A model generated the notes under the pieces. That model saw nothing but the letters and a program-made list of their open reading frames with translations, did no database searches and had not been told where the DNA came from. A stretch of 64,000 nucleotides of DNA, taken from contig WRAV01000006.1 of assembly GCA_009780025.1 (NCBI GenBank), forward strand, positions 1 through 64,000, read 5' to 3'. Below are positions 11-50,599 of the stretch, one piece after another. Source of the DNA: Oscillospiraceae bacterium. Its GTDB lineage: Bacteria > Bacillota > Clostridia > Oscillospirales > Ruminococcaceae. A program made the translations under genes and the position numbers. Position 1 is the stretch's first letter; every line of letters begins with the position of its first letter.

Positions 11-46
11 AGAAAACAGGTTGTGTTTACACAGCCTGTTTTCTAT
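11..46. terminator. Hairpin terminator at the recombinase remnant's 3' end
   Basis: A 10-bp perfect stem (agaaaacagg / cctgttttct) encloses a further short pairing. It is followed on the plus strand by a T-rich stretch. The stop codon of the minus-strand recombinase fragment lies inside it, so it could end transcription from either side. Confidence 0.5.
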
Positions 47-419
47 TTTCTTTGCCAAAAGATTTGTGCAGCTTCTTACGCATTTCAACGTCCGGCAAAT
101 CGACTTCCCCGATGAAGTTGAAATGCACTTCCACCTTTTGCTCCAGCTTCTCGCCAATGGCGGCGGGTTCCCGATGGTGGACAACAATGTGGTGGATAAA
201 CTCACGCAAAATAGCGGGCGTTAGTTCACTGACGCGAGTGTACCTCTGCACAACCTTTAGAAAGTCATTGACATCCATCTCATGCGACAACTCTTCTTTT
301 ACGATAGCATCCAAGTGGCGTATCTGCTCACGCAGAATATCGTACTCCTCTTGGTAGTTGTGCAGCAATTTCTGATACTGGCTATCCGGAAGCTTATCAA
401 GCGCATGATCTTCAGACAA
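27..419 (-). pseudogene. C-terminal remnant of a large serine recombinase
   Basis: About 130 codons match the C-terminal region (coiled coil plus DUF4368-like tail) of the large serine site-specific recombinases found on clostridial integrative elements. The signs are a helical stretch resembling KLPDSQYQKLLHNYQEEYD, the phrase ILREFIHHIVVH, and a tail reading VEVHFNFIGEVDLP. The resolvase catalytic domain and the zinc-ribbon/recombinase domain are absent. An in-frame TGA lies just upstream and the only possible start is TTG, so this is not a functional gene. It probably marks the edge of a decayed integrative element together with the relaxase-like tail at 4.3-4.7 kb. The identification comes from remembered family features, not a search. 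Confidence 0.7.
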
Positions 420-1183: not shown

Positions 1184-1352
1184 TTACAGCGCGATTGAAT
1201 ACGACATTTTTGTTAATTGCAATATTTGGGTGAATTTTACAAAAAATGCAAAAGGGAAATTATGACAGATATTGTAGTGGTATACACTTTAAAACGCATT
1301 CAAGATTCCAACATGCTTTTGATTGGGTTAATATTGCAAAGGGGTGTGCGAC

Positions 1353-3482
1353 ATGACAGCTTGGATAAAGAGAATTTGGGAGCGCATACAACAATATATT
1401 AAAGCAATATTATCTTTTTTTCTCATACCACTCATACCACTTGTTTCAATTGGTGCTTTAGTAAAAGCAGCGTTTTTATCTTTTTCGAAGGCAACCATTG
1501 ATTTTTCAAACAATAGCACTGAACATGCAAAAAAAATAGGAGATTTTTTTACGCTTGGTCGATTTCCCAGTGTGAATCGTAGGCGATCTGAACGACTAAG
1601 GCGAAGACTGTTTTCTGCCAAAGACGAAACTTTTCTTAATACAAAAATGCATTACATTGTAATGTTTGCAACTTTGGGGTTGCAAATGATTGCTGTGTTT
1701 ACAACATTCCGTGGGGCGATGGTTTTCTTTGAAGGCATACATTGGACAGCGCCTCTTTTCTTTACAGCCGTGTTAGTATTCATGTTTTGGGTAATGGCAA
1801 ACACCGCATTCAGTAAGCGCCGAAGACTGCGTTCAAGAGGAATATTACTGGCGATCCTTTTCGTAATAACCACTTTTTTATCTTATGTGGGAATATCAAA
1901 CGCAGTGATACGTCCACAGGACAGATATCATCAACAATATGAATTATTTGCTGTAGACTACAATCGACTGCTTGAATTACTCGTCATAGAAACTCCCACT
2001 TCAGATTATGCCCGGTATATCAACAACATATATAATGATGTTAGCCTTTTGATTTCACTAGCTGAAAGAGAAATTTACAGCTTAAACGAAGCAATTGCAG
2101 TAACTATTCAGCCTTCCTTTCCTGGGTATGGCACTGATCCCGAGACAGGGGCTATCATTAGTAGGCCTGTACCAAACCCATATTTTGGCGATGCGCTAGA
2201 GCGGAGAAATCAAAACATCGCCAGACGAAATAGTATCGCGGCAATTCTTGACACGGCTAATCCAATAAACCCTTTGGAAAACAATCCAAATTTTGTAGCA
2301 GAAGTGGGACGTCTAGTGACTGAACCTGATCGAAGAGCTGCATTAGCTGCCCTTGAAGAAAACTTCACAAATGAATTTCAGAATTACGCCGATACAGTGA
2401 GACTACATAATAGCTTGCAAGGCCTCATCGGAAGTTATCCGTTGGAAGAATTTTCACCAACGCTTCGAGATGTTTTAAGTGCAGCGTTAGTTGGCTGGAA
2501 CATGAGTGATTATTTGAGCGATTTGGAGCTGATTCCTTTTGTTTCAACTACTCCTGCTAATGAATCAGAACCCGAAGATAGTATTGCGCAACGAGCAAGA
2601 GAAGAAGAAATTCGGCGTGGGGCACCTAGAGAAGCATATCCGCATATAGATGCGATATACAGTTTTCTATTGCAAGGCACAGAATCTCCGGTTTTATCAG
2701 AATTGATTTACCATGAATTAAGAAATGAGGTCGAGCTGCGCTATGCAGGCATCCAGCGAACGGTTAATGCTTTGCCAGAAGAATTTAGAAGCGCTGAAAT
2801 CATAGATGCAAGCGAAAATTTGACTGATGCAAAAGAGGACTTGGACTCGAATTTGCAAAGCCCTTTTGTTTTTGCTATTTCTAGGTTATCATCGTCTGAA
2901 CGGACGGGGCTGGATATTATTATACTTCTTGTTGCCATCGTTGTAGATGGACTTACAATGCTCATTCCACTTACTGCAGAAAAACGTCGCGACTCTGTTT
3001 TGTTTACAGAATCTTCCAATGATCTTAGAGCCGATCAAGAGGATATTTTGGAAAAAATGTTGCTTTCAATTTTTATGCAGGTATCAAACACTGATAGAAA
3101 TGGTGATTGGTCACTTGACAAGGAGAACGAGATGTTTAGAGATATGCTGAAGAAAGTTAGCGATTATATCAACAGCTTTAGTGCGTCTCCATGCACACAA
3201 CTTTTGGGATACCCTATAAGAAAAAAAGTTGATTTGGATAATCCCTCAGAAGCTGATGGCGGGCTCCCTGGATTAACAACACTTTTATTAGAAATGGGAT
3301 ACATCAAATACGTATCAACATGGGAGTACAGTAAATTGGAGAAAGACTACCATGCTAACGGGGAAGTTTGGAAAGATAATGATAGTAAAGACGAGAACCC
3401 TCGCAATGGGTATTATTTGATGAAGAGACAATTTGTGATGTGGATGAATGACAATCAGCTTTCTTTCTTTTCCAAACTATAA
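1353..3482 (+). CDS. Uncharacterised multi-pass membrane protein (709 aa)
   Basis: I do not recognise a family. Several hydrophobic segments are visible: one at about residues 13-40, a cluster at about 100-185 (two or three helices), and one near 515-535 (DIIILLVAIVVDGLTMLIPL). Between them is a long, mostly helical soluble stretch of some 320 residues. The C-terminal 170 residues look soluble and cytosolic. The ATG at 1353 is preferred because AAAGGGG sits 8 bases upstream; the GTG at 1344 overlaps that site. The gene ends 13 bp before a second membrane gene that has its own strong AAGGAGG site, so the two form an operon. Codon use is AT-rich. An integrative-element cargo function is possible but unproven. 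Confidence 0.75.
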   Translation: MTAWIKRIWERIQQYIKAILSFFLIPLIPLVSIGALVKAAFLSFSKATIDFSNNSTEHAKKIGDFFTLGRFPSVNRRRSERLRRRLFSAKDETFLNTKMHYIVMFATLGLQMIAVFTTFRGAMVFFEGIHWTAPLFFTAVLVFMFWVMANTAFSKRRRLRSRGILLAILFVITTFLSYVGISNAVIRPQDRYHQQYELFAVDYNRLLELLVIETPTSDYARYINNIYNDVSLLISLAEREIYSLNEAIAVTIQPSFPGYGTDPETGAIISRPVPNPYFGDALERRNQNIARRNSIAAILDTANPINPLENNPNFVAEVGRLVTEPDRRAALAALEENFTNEFQNYADTVRLHNSLQGLIGSYPLEEFSPTLRDVLSAALVGWNMSDYLSDLELIPFVSTTPANESEPEDSIAQRAREEEIRRGAPREAYPHIDAIYSFLLQGTESPVLSELIYHELRNEVELRYAGIQRTVNALPEEFRSAEIIDASENLTDAKEDLDSNLQSPFVFAISRLSSSERTGLDIIILLVAIVVDGLTMLIPLTAEKRRDSVLFTESSNDLRADQEDILEKMLLSIFMQVSNTDRNGDWSLDKENEMFRDMLKKVSDYINSFSASPCTQLLGYPIRKKVDLDNPSEADGGLPGLTTLLLEMGYIKYVSTWEYSKLEKDYHANGEVWKDNDSKDENPRNGYYLMKRQFVMWMNDNQLSFFSKL

Positions 3483-3495
3483 GGAGGAACTCTAA

Positions 3496-4209
3496 ATGGA
3501 AATGGAATATCCCCTTAATTACGCAGAGATTGATCCTCGTTTCATTGAAGATTTCCTCGGCCGTGCAGAAAATCTTTTTGTAATTACTGTAGTTTTTGCT
3601 TTCATGGGCCTTGCGGTTGTTATTAGCTTGAACACTGTAAAAAGGGATTTTGGAGAAATTACGCGCGAGCCGGCTTGGAAAAAAATACCTAACGCTATGG
3701 CTGGCGAGCTGTTCTCAATTTTTGCTTTGGTATTTATGTTACATAGAGCTATGCAGATCCGTGTAGCAGTAATCTGTGGTTTAGTGGCTTTGTTTTTATC
3801 TGTAAGCAGTTGGTATCTAAATCGTTATGGGATAAGATTCAGCAGAAGGAAAAATACGGTGGAGTCAGAAAACCTTGAAGCCTCCCCGACCCCCCCCCCC
3901 AAAAAAGTCTCAGAAAACCCTGTGTTTGCTTATACATTGAGTATACTCTCGACATTAGCTATTTGCGCTTTTGGATTCTACGCAGTTATCTCTATTGTAT
4001 TCAACGTAATTATTATAAATATCCAGATACAGGGGTTCCCTGACGAATCCCTGCTTGAGGTTTTGCGTCTTTGGGATATATTAATTACTGCCGTAGCATC
4101 AATCTCTGTGATTGTCTTTGGTTCACGTCTTCTTATTGAAATGACCACTGAAATCAAAGAAACGAGTAATCGTGCCGTTGCAAAAGTTAAAAAACGACTA
4201 ATGCGATAA
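3496..4209 (+). CDS. Uncharacterised membrane protein (237 aa) with a poly-C tract
   Basis: Four or five hydrophobic helices are visible: about 30-52, 75-88, 90-107, 148-172 and 193-215. A charged stretch follows the third. An AAGGAGG ribosome site lies 8 bases before the ATG. The middle of the gene holds 11 C followed by 6 A, coding a short proline/lysine linker (TPPPKK) between the two membrane halves. Slippage in that tract would frame-shift the second half, so on/off switching is conceivable. No family is recognised. It is the second gene of the operon with the 709-aa membrane protein, and the two products probably act together in the membrane. Confidence 0.7.
   Translation: MEMEYPLNYAEIDPRFIEDFLGRAENLFVITVVFAFMGLAVVISLNTVKRDFGEITREPAWKKIPNAMAGELFSIFALVFMLHRAMQIRVAVICGLVALFLSVSSWYLNRYGIRFSRRKNTVESENLEASPTPPPKKVSENPVFAYTLSILSTLAICAFGFYAVISIVFNVIIINIQIQGFPDESLLEVLRLWDILITAVASISVIVFGSRLLIEMTTEIKETSNRAVAKVKKRLMR
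3890..3906 (+). repeat. C11-A6 homopolymer tract inside a coding region
   Basis: Eleven consecutive C are followed by six A, inside the open frame of the 237-aa membrane protein. Tracts of this length are classic slipped-strand sites, so the frame may vary between cells. It may also be a sequencing length error. Confidence 0.85.
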
Positions 4210-15848: not shown

Positions 15849-16036
15849 AGAGGGGTTCATTTCACAGAGACAAAATTCAGGGCTGTTGCAAACCGTTTTA
15901 GGTGGTAGCGATGGCCCCCTTTTCTTATTCCGCACAGGTTGTACTTTTGTGTTTTTTTGAAGTGCAATATTTTAAAAAACACCAACGCATTATATGTTTG
16001 TAAGCTGCCGACTGGTCACACGAAAGGAGCAGCGAC

Positions 16037-17173
16037 ATGACACTTGAAGAACTGCGTCAACGCAGAAGCGACTTGGGCGAGCGCCGGAGCGCAACGTTAG
16101 ATAACATGCGCACTATCGCCGAAGAATCGAACCGAGTAGCTGATGTCGCCCATAACGCGAAACAGATACTTGACAACCTTGACACTGAATTTGAGTCTAA
16201 AACCAAGCTGAACAAGGTCGATGTTTCCTTCCTCTTTTTCGCTACGGCGTTGCAGTGTGTGCGGCAGTACTTGCTCACTAGCTTTAACGAGCGACTTGAT
16301 GATAAGGCAGCTGCAGAAAAAGCAAATGGTGGTGGGACAAAAGAAACAAGCGATCGTTCCCACCGTTGGTACAGACCAACATTAGAAGAAATTTGCACAA
16401 ATCCGGTTCCATATGACGCAACCATGGGAAGCCCTGATTTTGATTTAGGCCTTGGTGGAACGGGTAAAAGGTTTAAGGCGCTTGGGCACGACCCGTTGCT
16501 GGGATATATTTTTGGCACTGCTAATATAGTTACCAGCACGGTAACCACGTGGGACCTTCAATCATTTCATGTCAAGACAGGTCAAACATCGAAGGGGCAT
16601 GCCAGAGACAAGGTTACCAATAGAGCCGACACCTCAAAAGTGTTCGCTTACACAAAGGACAGACTACTTGATGAAGGCATTGAGGGCAAAACATGTGTAG
16701 GAACGGCACTGTTAAAGCAATGGGCACACATAAAGTCTGATATGTATTCTATAACGGGGTTGCCTATTCCAACAATAAGCACAATCTCGCCGGACTTTGG
16801 TAGGGAGTTGGCAAAATATGGCATAGACATGGGGAATCTTGCAACCGTTGGCAAGCAAGCTGCGGGCGCAATATTGATAAATATAATAATCGCGATGATA
16901 CACTACGTGTTTTACGATGAAAGCCAATACTCCAACAGAAGGCAATACGAAGTGAAGACGAGAAAAATATTAAGCTACTCAAACGCAATTGCCTCGGCTA
17001 GTAATATTGTTTATGTCGCAATTAGCGAAGATTTCAAAAAATTTGACATAGGCGGTATGATTGTGACTATATGGCGCTTAATATCGGATTCTAATTTTAT
17101 AGCTAACGTCAAAGAAGAATTTGTCTTTGGCAGCTTCGACAAAATAATTCAAGGCGAAGAATATAGCTTCTAA
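16037..17173 (+). CDS. Uncharacterised 378-aa protein, first gene of a three-gene cassette
   Basis: No family is recognised with confidence. The first 50 residues look like a coiled coil. Residues about 115-180 carry a striking block (DFDLGLGGTGKRFKALGHD, then PLLGYIFGTANIVTS and LQSFHVKTG) that looks conserved rather than random. A further Gly/Ala hydrophobic stretch near 270-295 (QAAGAILINIIIAMIHYVFY) could enter a membrane. A GAAAGGAG site precedes the ATG. It is followed after 24 bp and 15 bp by two small paralogous genes and then a terminator, so the three form a self-contained operon. Codon use is more AT-rich than the LarA and macroglobulin neighbours, suggesting horizontal transfer. 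Confidence 0.75.
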   Translation: MTLEELRQRRSDLGERRSATLDNMRTIAEESNRVADVAHNAKQILDNLDTEFESKTKLNKVDVSFLFFATALQCVRQYLLTSFNERLDDKAAAEKANGGGTKETSDRSHRWYRPTLEEICTNPVPYDATMGSPDFDLGLGGTGKRFKALGHDPLLGYIFGTANIVTSTVTTWDLQSFHVKTGQTSKGHARDKVTNRADTSKVFAYTKDRLLDEGIEGKTCVGTALLKQWAHIKSDMYSITGLPIPTISTISPDFGRELAKYGIDMGNLATVGKQAAGAILINIIIAMIHYVFYDESQYSNRRQYEVKTRKILSYSNAIASASNIVYVAISEDFKKFDIGGMIVTIWRLISDSNFIANVKEEFVFGSFDKIIQGEEYSF

Positions 17174-17197
17174 AAAATAGTGGGAGGTCTTTAGATT

Positions 17198-17599
17198 ATG
17201 CCATTTCCTATTTTAATCGCGGGGGTAGCTGCAAAAGCTATTGCGGCTACAGTAAGCACAAAAGTTGCCGTTGCAGCGGTAGCCGCGACAGCAGGGGCAG
17301 GCGCTACAGTTGCAACAGCGTTATATAAGAAAGGAAAACATCGCGGAAAAAAAGAAGGTTACATACAAGCTTCAAAGGAATATGAAAGTAAACTTAGAAA
17401 ACAAACCGAAGAATTTTTATCGCAATGTGAAGTTTTCGAATCCCAGCGCGGTGAGTATGAACAGTTGATAAATGATTACGAGCGTATTATTGGAGTGTTG
17501 AAAAAAGAAGTTGACAGCAACGATAACCATGCGGCAAACGTTTTGCTGCGCAAAGTTGTTAAGGAGAAACACGAATTAAAAAATCTTAGTAACGCTTAG
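17198..17599 (+). CDS. Small membrane-tail protein A (133 aa), paralogue of next gene
   Basis: Residues 3-45 are an Ala/Gly/Val-rich hydrophobic stretch (one long or two short membrane passes), followed by a basic turn (KKGKHRGKKEG). A charged coiled-coil region follows to the end (YIQASKEYESKLRKQ, RGEYEQLINDYERIIGVL). The TGGGAGG site is strong. The same plan and matching phrases occur in the next gene, so the two are tandem paralogues. Function is unknown. A membrane-anchored coiled-coil subunit serving the 378-aa protein is the simplest reading. Confidence 0.7.
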   Translation: MPFPILIAGVAAKAIAATVSTKVAVAAVAATAGAGATVATALYKKGKHRGKKEGYIQASKEYESKLRKQTEEFLSQCEVFESQRGEYEQLINDYERIIGVLKKEVDSNDNHAANVLLRKVVKEKHELKNLSNA

Positions 17600-17614
17600 C
17601 ATGAGGTGAATATT

Positions 17615-17950
17615 ATGAAATTACCGCTAATTCCGGTTGCCGTAGGGGCAATTGTTGCCGCAAGTTTAGCCTCTTCAGTAGTAAGAAGGATAGTACGCAG
17701 CATAGCAAGGCGTAAAAATTACGCGCAAGCAACCATGGAATATCAAGATAAACTCAAGCGCAGGGCGGAAGTTTTTTTCTCGTCTGACAAATCGCCTGCA
17801 AGCCACCGTGAGGAATACGAGCTGCTTTTGGATGCGTACGAAATTGCCATTAACGGGATAGAGCGAATGCCAAAACGCTCTAAGGGTGAGAAAGAACTAC
17901 TGCTACAAATGTTAAGTGATGAAAAAAAACTGCTAAAGCTCTACTACTAA
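17615..17950 (+). CDS. Small membrane-tail protein B (111 aa), paralogue of previous gene
   Basis: A hydrophobic N-terminus (about 3-22) is followed by a basic segment (VVRRIVRSIARRKN). A coiled coil with phrases matching the previous gene follows: YAQATMEYQDKLKRR against YIQASKEYESKLRKQ, and HREEYELLLDAYEIAINGI against QRGEYEQLINDYERIIGVL. ATG 17615 is chosen because AGGTG sits 6 bases upstream; the GTG at 17606 is that site's own tail. It is last in the cassette and is followed by a good terminator. Function is unknown. Confidence 0.7.
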   Translation: MKLPLIPVAVGAIVAASLASSVVRRIVRSIARRKNYAQATMEYQDKLKRRAEVFFSSDKSPASHREEYELLLDAYEIAINGIERMPKRSKGEKELLLQMLSDEKKLLKLYY

Positions 17951-17970
17951 CGGCTTAACAAAGCCGCTCT

Positions 17971-18010
17971 AAGCGCATCAGCTTCCAGTTGCTGATGCGT
18001 TTGTTTTTTT
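17971..18010 (+). terminator. Rho-independent terminator of the three-gene cassette
   Basis: The stem gcgcatcagc / gctgatgcgt has an 8-base loop, followed by ttgttttttt. It closes the cassette cleanly before the macroglobulin promoter. Confidence 0.85.
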
Positions 18011-49120: not shown

Positions 49121-50599
49121 CTAATGCAAGTAATATCGTATGGTTAATCTCGAACCTAAACCACTTGGCGGAGACTGTAACACCTCATCGTCATCTAGCT
49201 TACATGCTTTCATAGCGGAACAAACCATCGCAGTTTTTTGGTAATTGCCTTCGACGTTTTCCCTAATAATGTCTCCTGCAACAATGTCCAAATATTCCGC
49301 ACCCTTAGTTTTTGCTTCGTCCAACATGGAGCGTATAATTGCTTTGATTTCGCCAGTTTGATTTAATTGCTCAATAGAAAATCCAAGTCGCTTGGCCATA
49401 TCAATGAAAACATCAATGCTCCCTGCGTCCCACTGTGTAGATACTGCAATTTCGCAACCCGAAAGAGCAATTGGTTCGTTGATGAAATGTCTTTTGTGCT
49501 TTGTGCGCTCATAAATTTCTTCCGCCTTGGAAAGAGGTGCTATTATGTTAAGAGTAGGATGATGGAAGGCTTGTAATAAATCTTCCATAGATATACTAGG
49601 ATTACTCGCGACATAGCTCTGTATAACAGCCAAAACCAAACGATTTTTTATGTATACTTGTCCATTGAATTTATACTTAGTATAATCACGATTGGAAGCT
49701 TTACTGACCGCCTGTAAACTTTCATGTATACGGTCACGTTCCTCTTGCTCTAACTCTGGATTATCTGCTAAAGCGTTGAGCGCAGCAGTTAATAAATCTT
49801 TGTTATTTCCCCAAAAGTTTAAGAGCAATTCCCTTTCGCGTGAGCTGACTGCCATAATCACTTCACCTCCATCGAAATCGTCAAATTGTAAGGATGGCTG
49901 ACTAAGTGTTCGTAGGTATTCTTCAATAAATACCCTTGCATCTTGTGGCGTACATTCCGATAAACACGGCTCTAAAACATAGTCAACAAGATATTGATAG
50001 TTTAAACCAATGAACTGTTTACAGTCGCACGTTGGAGATGCTAACATCTCAAAATCGCTGTTGGAAATAGGAGATAAAAATAAGTAAACCGATTCTCCGT
50101 CAAGGTTTTCACCATATGTATAGTAACGATTTGTTTGTTCCTTACCCTCTTTAGACTTAACTTTGTTTTCAAGTATAATGTTTATAGTCTTGATTACTTG
50201 CTCGCTGCTAAAGTCAAAAGAGAGAAATAAATCTAGCCGGTCATTGGCAGAGGTTGCATGTTCTCGCTCACATATGATGTGTTCAAGTGTATATCCACCA
50301 CAAACGATAATATCTTCGATGCCTTCTGGAAATTGTAACTGCTCGTTTTCGGCTTGCAACTTGTTTTTAACAAGCACTAAAAGTTCCAACAAGCGCCTAA
50401 GAGCAAAATCGTTAAGCTCATGGCTCTCCGTTGGGGAAAGCAACCAATGTAAAAAATAACTATGTATATTCTCTTTTCTGGAGATTCCCAAAATATTAAA
50501 AAAGGATTTTTTCTTGTAATATCGGCTTAGTTGCTTAAACTCGTTACTGTTATTCAAGTTTATAATTTGTTCGTGCAAGCGATGCAGATTATCGTCCAC
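49121..50599 (-). CDS. PD-(D/E)XK nuclease-family protein
   Basis: A 492-aa protein. Residues about 40-215 carry a PD-(D/E)XK core of the PDDEXK_4 type: SRKENIHSYFLHWLLSP, then SANDRLDLFLSF (Asp) and NIILENKVKSKEGKEQTNRY (ExK), then QIxxL-like YLVDYVLEP. The C-terminal 170 residues look like a separate domain (FIDMAKRLGFSIEQ, LSGCEIAVSTQWDAGSID). Such stand-alone nucleases occur in defence islands, but no methylase or ATPase partner is nearby. AT-rich codons and a position near a tRNA gene suggest acquisition. The ATG has GAAAGGAG upstream. Confidence 0.75.
   Translation of the reverse strand: MDDNLHRLHEQIINLNNSNEFKQLSRYYKKKSFFNILGISRKENIHSYFLHWLLSPTESHELNDFALRRLLELLVLVKNKLQAENEQLQFPEGIEDIIVCGGYTLEHIICEREHATSANDRLDLFLSFDFSSEQVIKTINIILENKVKSKEGKEQTNRYYTYGENLDGESVYLFLSPISNSDFEMLASPTCDCKQFIGLNYQYLVDYVLEPCLSECTPQDARVFIEEYLRTLSQPSLQFDDFDGGEVIMAVSSRERELLLNFWGNNKDLLTAALNALADNPELEQEERDRIHESLQAVSKASNRDYTKYKFNGQVYIKNRLVLAVIQSYVASNPSISMEDLLQAFHHPTLNIIAPLSKAEEIYERTKHKRHFINEPIALSGCEIAVSTQWDAGSIDVFIDMAKRLGFSIEQLNQTGEIKAIIRSMLDEAKTKGAEYLDIVAGDIIRENVEGNYQKTAMVCSAMKACKLDDDEVLQSPPSGLGSRLTIRYYLH

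Follow-up and report, generated by a model that had tools for sequence, protein, structure and literature searches.

A candidate Bunzi-like three-gene operon with small coiled-coil partners in an Oscillospiraceae bacterium

Bunzi is an anti-phage system made up of BnzA and BnzB (PADLOC PDLC03833/PDLC03834; attributed to Millman et al. 2022 in PMC10952713). It includes a TerB domain (PMC10952713), and a recent review places it among the systems of unknown mechanism (PMC12926258). Two further systems bear on the locus described here: PDC-M09, a candidate system listed by PADLOC and composed of the M09A zipper protein and M09B, and the LeoA/LeoB/LeoC dynamin system. The window, by which we mean the whole 64,000-nucleotide stretch analysed, belongs to contig WRAV01000006.1 of an Oscillospiraceae bacterium. 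On its + strand, at 16037-17950, three ORFs form one operon, referred to below as the cassette.

Layout of the cassette and its likeness to named systems

The features of the cassette are as follows.

16020-16036, + strand: ribosome site region of the 378-aa gene, GAAAGGAGCAGCGAC (read by eye)
16037-17173, + strand: BnzB-like core gene, 378 aa (PADLOC BnzB, profile-profile comparison, AlphaFold)
16442-16528, + strand: most conserved block of the core, from DLGLGGTGKRFKALGHDPLLGYIFGTANI; G150, H151, D152, G156, G160 and N163 invariant in the alignment of 80
16727-16771, + strand: second invariant block, HIKSDMYSITGLPIP, with H231, D235 and P245 (alignment of 80)
17198-17599, + strand: small partner 1, 133 aa; a hydrophobic N-terminus rich in Ala and Gly, then a basic turn and a long coiled coil
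17615-17950, + strand: small partner 2, 111 aa from ATG; the coil module again, with a hydrophobic helix at the N-terminus
17970-18003, + strand: intrinsic terminator, 13-pair stem with a T tail (-20.9 kcal/mol, z=-3.3)

An earlier note on this DNA had described three ORFs with their own ribosome sites and terminator, AT-richer than their neighbours, the last two being small tandem paralogues with hydrophobic N-termini. All of these points held. The ORFs are present at 16037-17173, 17198-17599 and 17606-17950, and the terminator is accompanied by ribosome sites AAAGGAG, GGGAGG and GAGGTG across the three genes (by eye). A GTG at 17606 would give small partner 2 a length of 114 aa; the ATG at 17615 is the likelier start since GAGGTG lies six bases before it. 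GC is 0.44, 0.41 and 0.44 for genes 1 to 3, and GC3 is 0.45, 0.33 and 0.43, against 0.67 in the upstream LarA-like gene and 0.65 in the downstream alpha-2-macroglobulin-like gene (both flanking names assigned by eye). The two small proteins match one coil HMM (1e-25 over residues 46-120 of partner 1; 7e-18 over residues 30-102 of the GTG form of partner 2), and their Kyte-Doolittle 19-residue peaks are 1.74 and 2.22. A promoter scan of the 188-bp gap upstream of the core gene gave no good sigma-70 match; the scan returned weak intragenic matches only, no more than in shuffles. Genes neighbouring the cassette in the window are metabolic, and inspection by eye found no WYL regulator or other recognised defence gene beside it there.

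With Bunzi the cassette shares a core homologous to BnzB over profile positions 187-486 of 504 (PADLOC, E=7e-27) and the two-component logic of BnzB plus a Gly/Ala-rich membrane and coil partner in a same-strand operon. It differs in having two small tandem partners instead of a large one, neither with a BnzA match at E<1 (PADLOC), and in its core, which carries a short N-terminal coil of its own where the first 186 BnzB positions go unmatched. TerB is absent from the cassette and from the whole genome. Because the window genes fail BnzA and the genome is without TerB, the cassette is, by its sequence, classed here as Bunzi-like and not formally as Bunzi.

Likeness to the other two systems is slighter. 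BnzB-matching relatives of the same order adjoin an M09A match, and PDC-M09 therefore overlaps the BnzB superfamily, but the window proteins themselves match neither M09A nor M09B. Direct homology of the small partners to the M09A-type partner was unsupported (2.9% in profile comparison). Small partner 1 weakly matches PADLOC LeoBC (4e-5), and some relatives have a dynamin-like partner, as at locus L063 (read by eye) and on a Eubacterium eligens plasmid; the cassette, in contrast, encodes no GTPase and has no Dynamin match.

The BnzB-like core and its coiled-coil partners

The 378-aa protein has no significant match in Pfam, PHROG or NCBIfam. A family alignment was built from it and relatives at 30-69% identity (80 sequences in all), drawn from Bacillota, Treponema, Synergistota, Desulfuromonadales and Bacteroidales. 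Every one of the 80 matches BnzB, and none matches another PADLOC family; Pfam gives scattered weak hits only, and the family profile aligns with canonical-type BnzB of the same order at 95% probability (hhalign, E=3e-8). These profile comparisons place the core gene in the BnzB superfamily, so that the remark in the earlier note that the cassette held no gene it could name is superseded for the first gene. The HMM and structure searches proposed there gave, besides BnzB, a mostly helical AlphaFold2 model (mean pLDDT 92, pTM 0.73) for which Foldseek returned nothing at E<=0.001 from the PDB or the viral models of BFVD; the PDB searched by sequence also gave nothing at E<=0.001, and the fold search returned nothing suggesting an activity.

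The block that had looked conserved on first reading shows the strongest conservation in the family, with six residues invariant in 80/80 sequences. Fifteen core residues are invariant overall (F52, T56, Q73, P125, D127, G150, H151, D152, G156, G160, N163, H231, D235, P245 and D337), a pattern suggestive of catalysis or metal binding. Two motifs, HR..xGHD and HxxSD, raised the idea of a YdjM/DUF457 membrane metal hydrolase (PF04307), which we rejected: hhalign against 31 YdjM proteins scored 16.8, inside the range of 11.2-18.7 given by 20 column-shuffled controls. Residue 144 (16466-16468), just before the invariant GHD block, is Lys in the window protein and His in 79 of the 80 aligned sequences; canonical-type BnzB also has His here. 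K144 may mean that a metal or catalytic ligand has been lost, and the activity of the window copy could be altered, reduced or absent.

The small partners are recognised by a coil module with the consensus GK..GKKEGY..AS.EYE.KL..QAE.F, from which small partner 2 has diverged. AlphaFold models small partner 1 as one long helix (22-108) with pLDDT over 90 in the coil and the first 45 residues unsure. Across relatives the N-termini vary, from the Ala/Gly-rich hydrophobic helix of the window to an amphipathic-looking helix in Neobacillus; longer N-terminal domains occur at L054, L056, L062 and L101, the coil is fused to TerB at L070, and some partners are 450-690-aa proteins with the coil at the start.

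A coil-module protein adjoins the BnzB-like gene in 48 of the 80 loci. Among the 1361 genes of these loci 55 encode such proteins, none of them more than two genes away from a BnzB-like gene; the training set of the coil HMM came from core-gene neighbours, which biases its recall towards them, and no distant gene was hit at 1e-3. Where a locus gave no hit, the corresponding position is mostly taken by a Gly-rich zipper protein or by a large protein. Tandem coil pairs downstream recur (L091, L122 and L131; Terrisporobacter, Bacteroidaceae and Prevotellaceae), and at L052, L098 and L101 one coil gene stands on either side of the core. Core and partner distances are correlated (Mantel r=0.43, p=0.0002, 48 loci). 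Core and coil partner belong to a defence-associated superfamily and make up a unit that is linked and diverges together, with the coil module, as judged from these gene neighbourhoods, strictly linked to this BnzB branch. The N-terminus varies, the coil is kept and the distances correlate; pairing with the core would then be what is conserved in the function of the small genes, the membrane part being one of several options.

Among 102 proteins encoded next to relatives PADLOC matched BnzA (12), LeoBC (15), LeoA (6) and PDC-M09B (9), and WYL genes also occur. Partner domains seen in the family are zinc ribbons, dynamin and TerB, the last in 6 relatives by a home-made HMM. At L005 (the same as L117; 6243-9278) a single 1011-aa protein joins a BnzB-like domain to a long C-terminal extension, which resembles the large separate partners of other loci.

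Distribution, transfer and plasmid copies

None of 10 congeners has the core gene, and a search of the order with the BnzB profile as a whole hit 22 of 394 genomes. In the core-protein tree the window protein falls in a fully supported group with Desulfosporosinus (68-69% identity, full length), Defluviitaleaceae and two Bacillaceae, and Oscillospirales relatives are scattered elsewhere, away from it. Absence from congeners, nearest kin outside Oscillospirales and the GC3 shift indicate that the cassette is horizontally acquired. The genus offered no clean empty site: the LarA-like gene has only distant congener matches, and the sole congener to have a close match to the alpha-2-macroglobulin-like gene shows different genes around it.

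WYL-type regulators occur in 21 of the 80 loci, most of them up to four genes upstream on the same strand. Type I-C Cas genes and Mokosh MkoA lie near some relatives, a result obtained without matched control genes, and McrBC-like genes adjoin L034 (read by eye); the defence neighbours that the earlier note had thought worth looking for thus exist at some loci. Its other suggestion, prophage association, fared worse, since viral copies are rare (2 IMG/VR contigs and one partial INPHARED hit) and a prophage origin is not favoured. At L061 (4518-12660) a GmrSD-type gene and Cas3-like CRISPR genes come after the BnzB-like gene, all on one strand.

Two other places in the window stood out. An AT-rich (GC 0.38) gene at 49121-50599 (- strand) lies between ordinary genes, and the N-terminus of its 492-aa product resembles PD-(D/E)XK nuclease proteins by eye, making it a possible acquired defence gene. 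At 27-419 (- strand) lies what seems, by eye, to be a C-terminal fragment of a large serine recombinase; membrane-protein genes at 1344-4209 belong to the AT-rich stretch that comes after it.

Three plasmids were informative. On Lactococcus pLLI11B (L135, 6076-12496) one strand carries, in order, a WYL gene, a coil protein, a short BnzB, a 549-aa zipper protein and a 513-aa canonical-type BnzB (hhalign 100%, 1e-42), with 176 bp between the short BnzB and the zipper gene; two BnzB paralogues thus stand together in one apparent operon behind the WYL gene. The 381-aa coil-module partner of L101 matches the 549-aa protein in two segments (3e-5), which weakly ties coil partners to BnzA. The classic lactococcal phage-resistance plasmid pNP40 (L136, 7037-10624; NC_010901.1 33611-37198) encodes a WYL regulator, a BnzB-like protein (PADLOC BnzB, 1.9e-13) and a 486-aa partner. 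The copy on the Eubacterium eligens plasmid has the dynamin partner.

Function of the cassette

Our preferred reading, held with moderate confidence, is that the cassette is a horizontally acquired three-gene Bunzi-like anti-phage operon with membrane-anchored coil helpers, acting by abortive infection. The small proteins would anchor the BnzB-like protein at the inner face of the membrane via their hydrophobic Ala/Gly N-terminal helices, with the coils binding that protein or each other, and together they may do the job of the single large zipper protein BnzA of canonical Bunzi. Infection, probably perceived as membrane perturbation or a phage component, would switch the BnzB-like protein, and the complex would then stop the infected cell, most likely at the membrane. 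Membrane action of the small proteins is suggested by their hydrophobic N-termini. Defence is supported by the BnzB homology, the strict coil linkage, the patchy spread with transfer, and the defence and WYL genes nearby. The same evidence lends partial support to the original guess of a sensor/effector with membrane-active subunits in a defence system. Neither of the findings named at the time as counting against that guess, genes that do not travel together or a housekeeping role, was encountered.

A broader proposal is more tentative: that short BnzB plus coil partner makes up a defence system of its own, widespread but unrecognised, whose core takes interchangeable membrane, TerB, dynamin or other partners through a shared coil tag and can share an operon with canonical Bunzi.

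The pair might instead be a general membrane-stress or envelope-maintenance module that shares the BnzB fold and has no part in anti-phage immunity. Stress and membrane remodelling are other settings in which TerB, dynamin and zinc ribbons are known, and the metabolic neighbours of the cassette would fit, but the very patchy distribution and the copies on plasmids, beside CRISPR or Mokosh genes and WYL regulators, make this unlikely. We give still less credence to a toxin/antitoxin- or bacteriocin-like unit of two holin-like toxins controlled by the 378-aa protein. Small, hydrophobic, basic proteins in tandem and a weak Phage_holin_3_5 match (E=0.25) are what such a unit might show; a conserved toxin, however, would retain its membrane part, and here only the coil is kept, other partners having amphipathic-looking helices, larger domains or a TerB fusion. 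Least probable is a decaying or inactive relic, to which K144 and the divergence of small partner 2 could point, but three intact ORFs with ribosome sites and terminator, and full-length identity to the Desulfosporosinus protein, speak against it.

The family view suggests a plan for Bunzi itself, in which coil-tagged partners, several of them pointing to the membrane, can be exchanged around a conserved core. A caller for which BnzA is mandatory would overlook the whole branch, in Bacillota, Treponema, Synergistota, Bacteroidales and dairy plasmids. The branch also offers a concrete candidate on pNP40, which carries AbiE, AbiF and LlaJI (PMC8194271) and a 'DNA penetration' phage resistance (Garvey 1996, as cited in PMC5601072) for which our literature search found no gene assignment; there is perhaps a slim chance that its BnzB-like copy is the source of this resistance.
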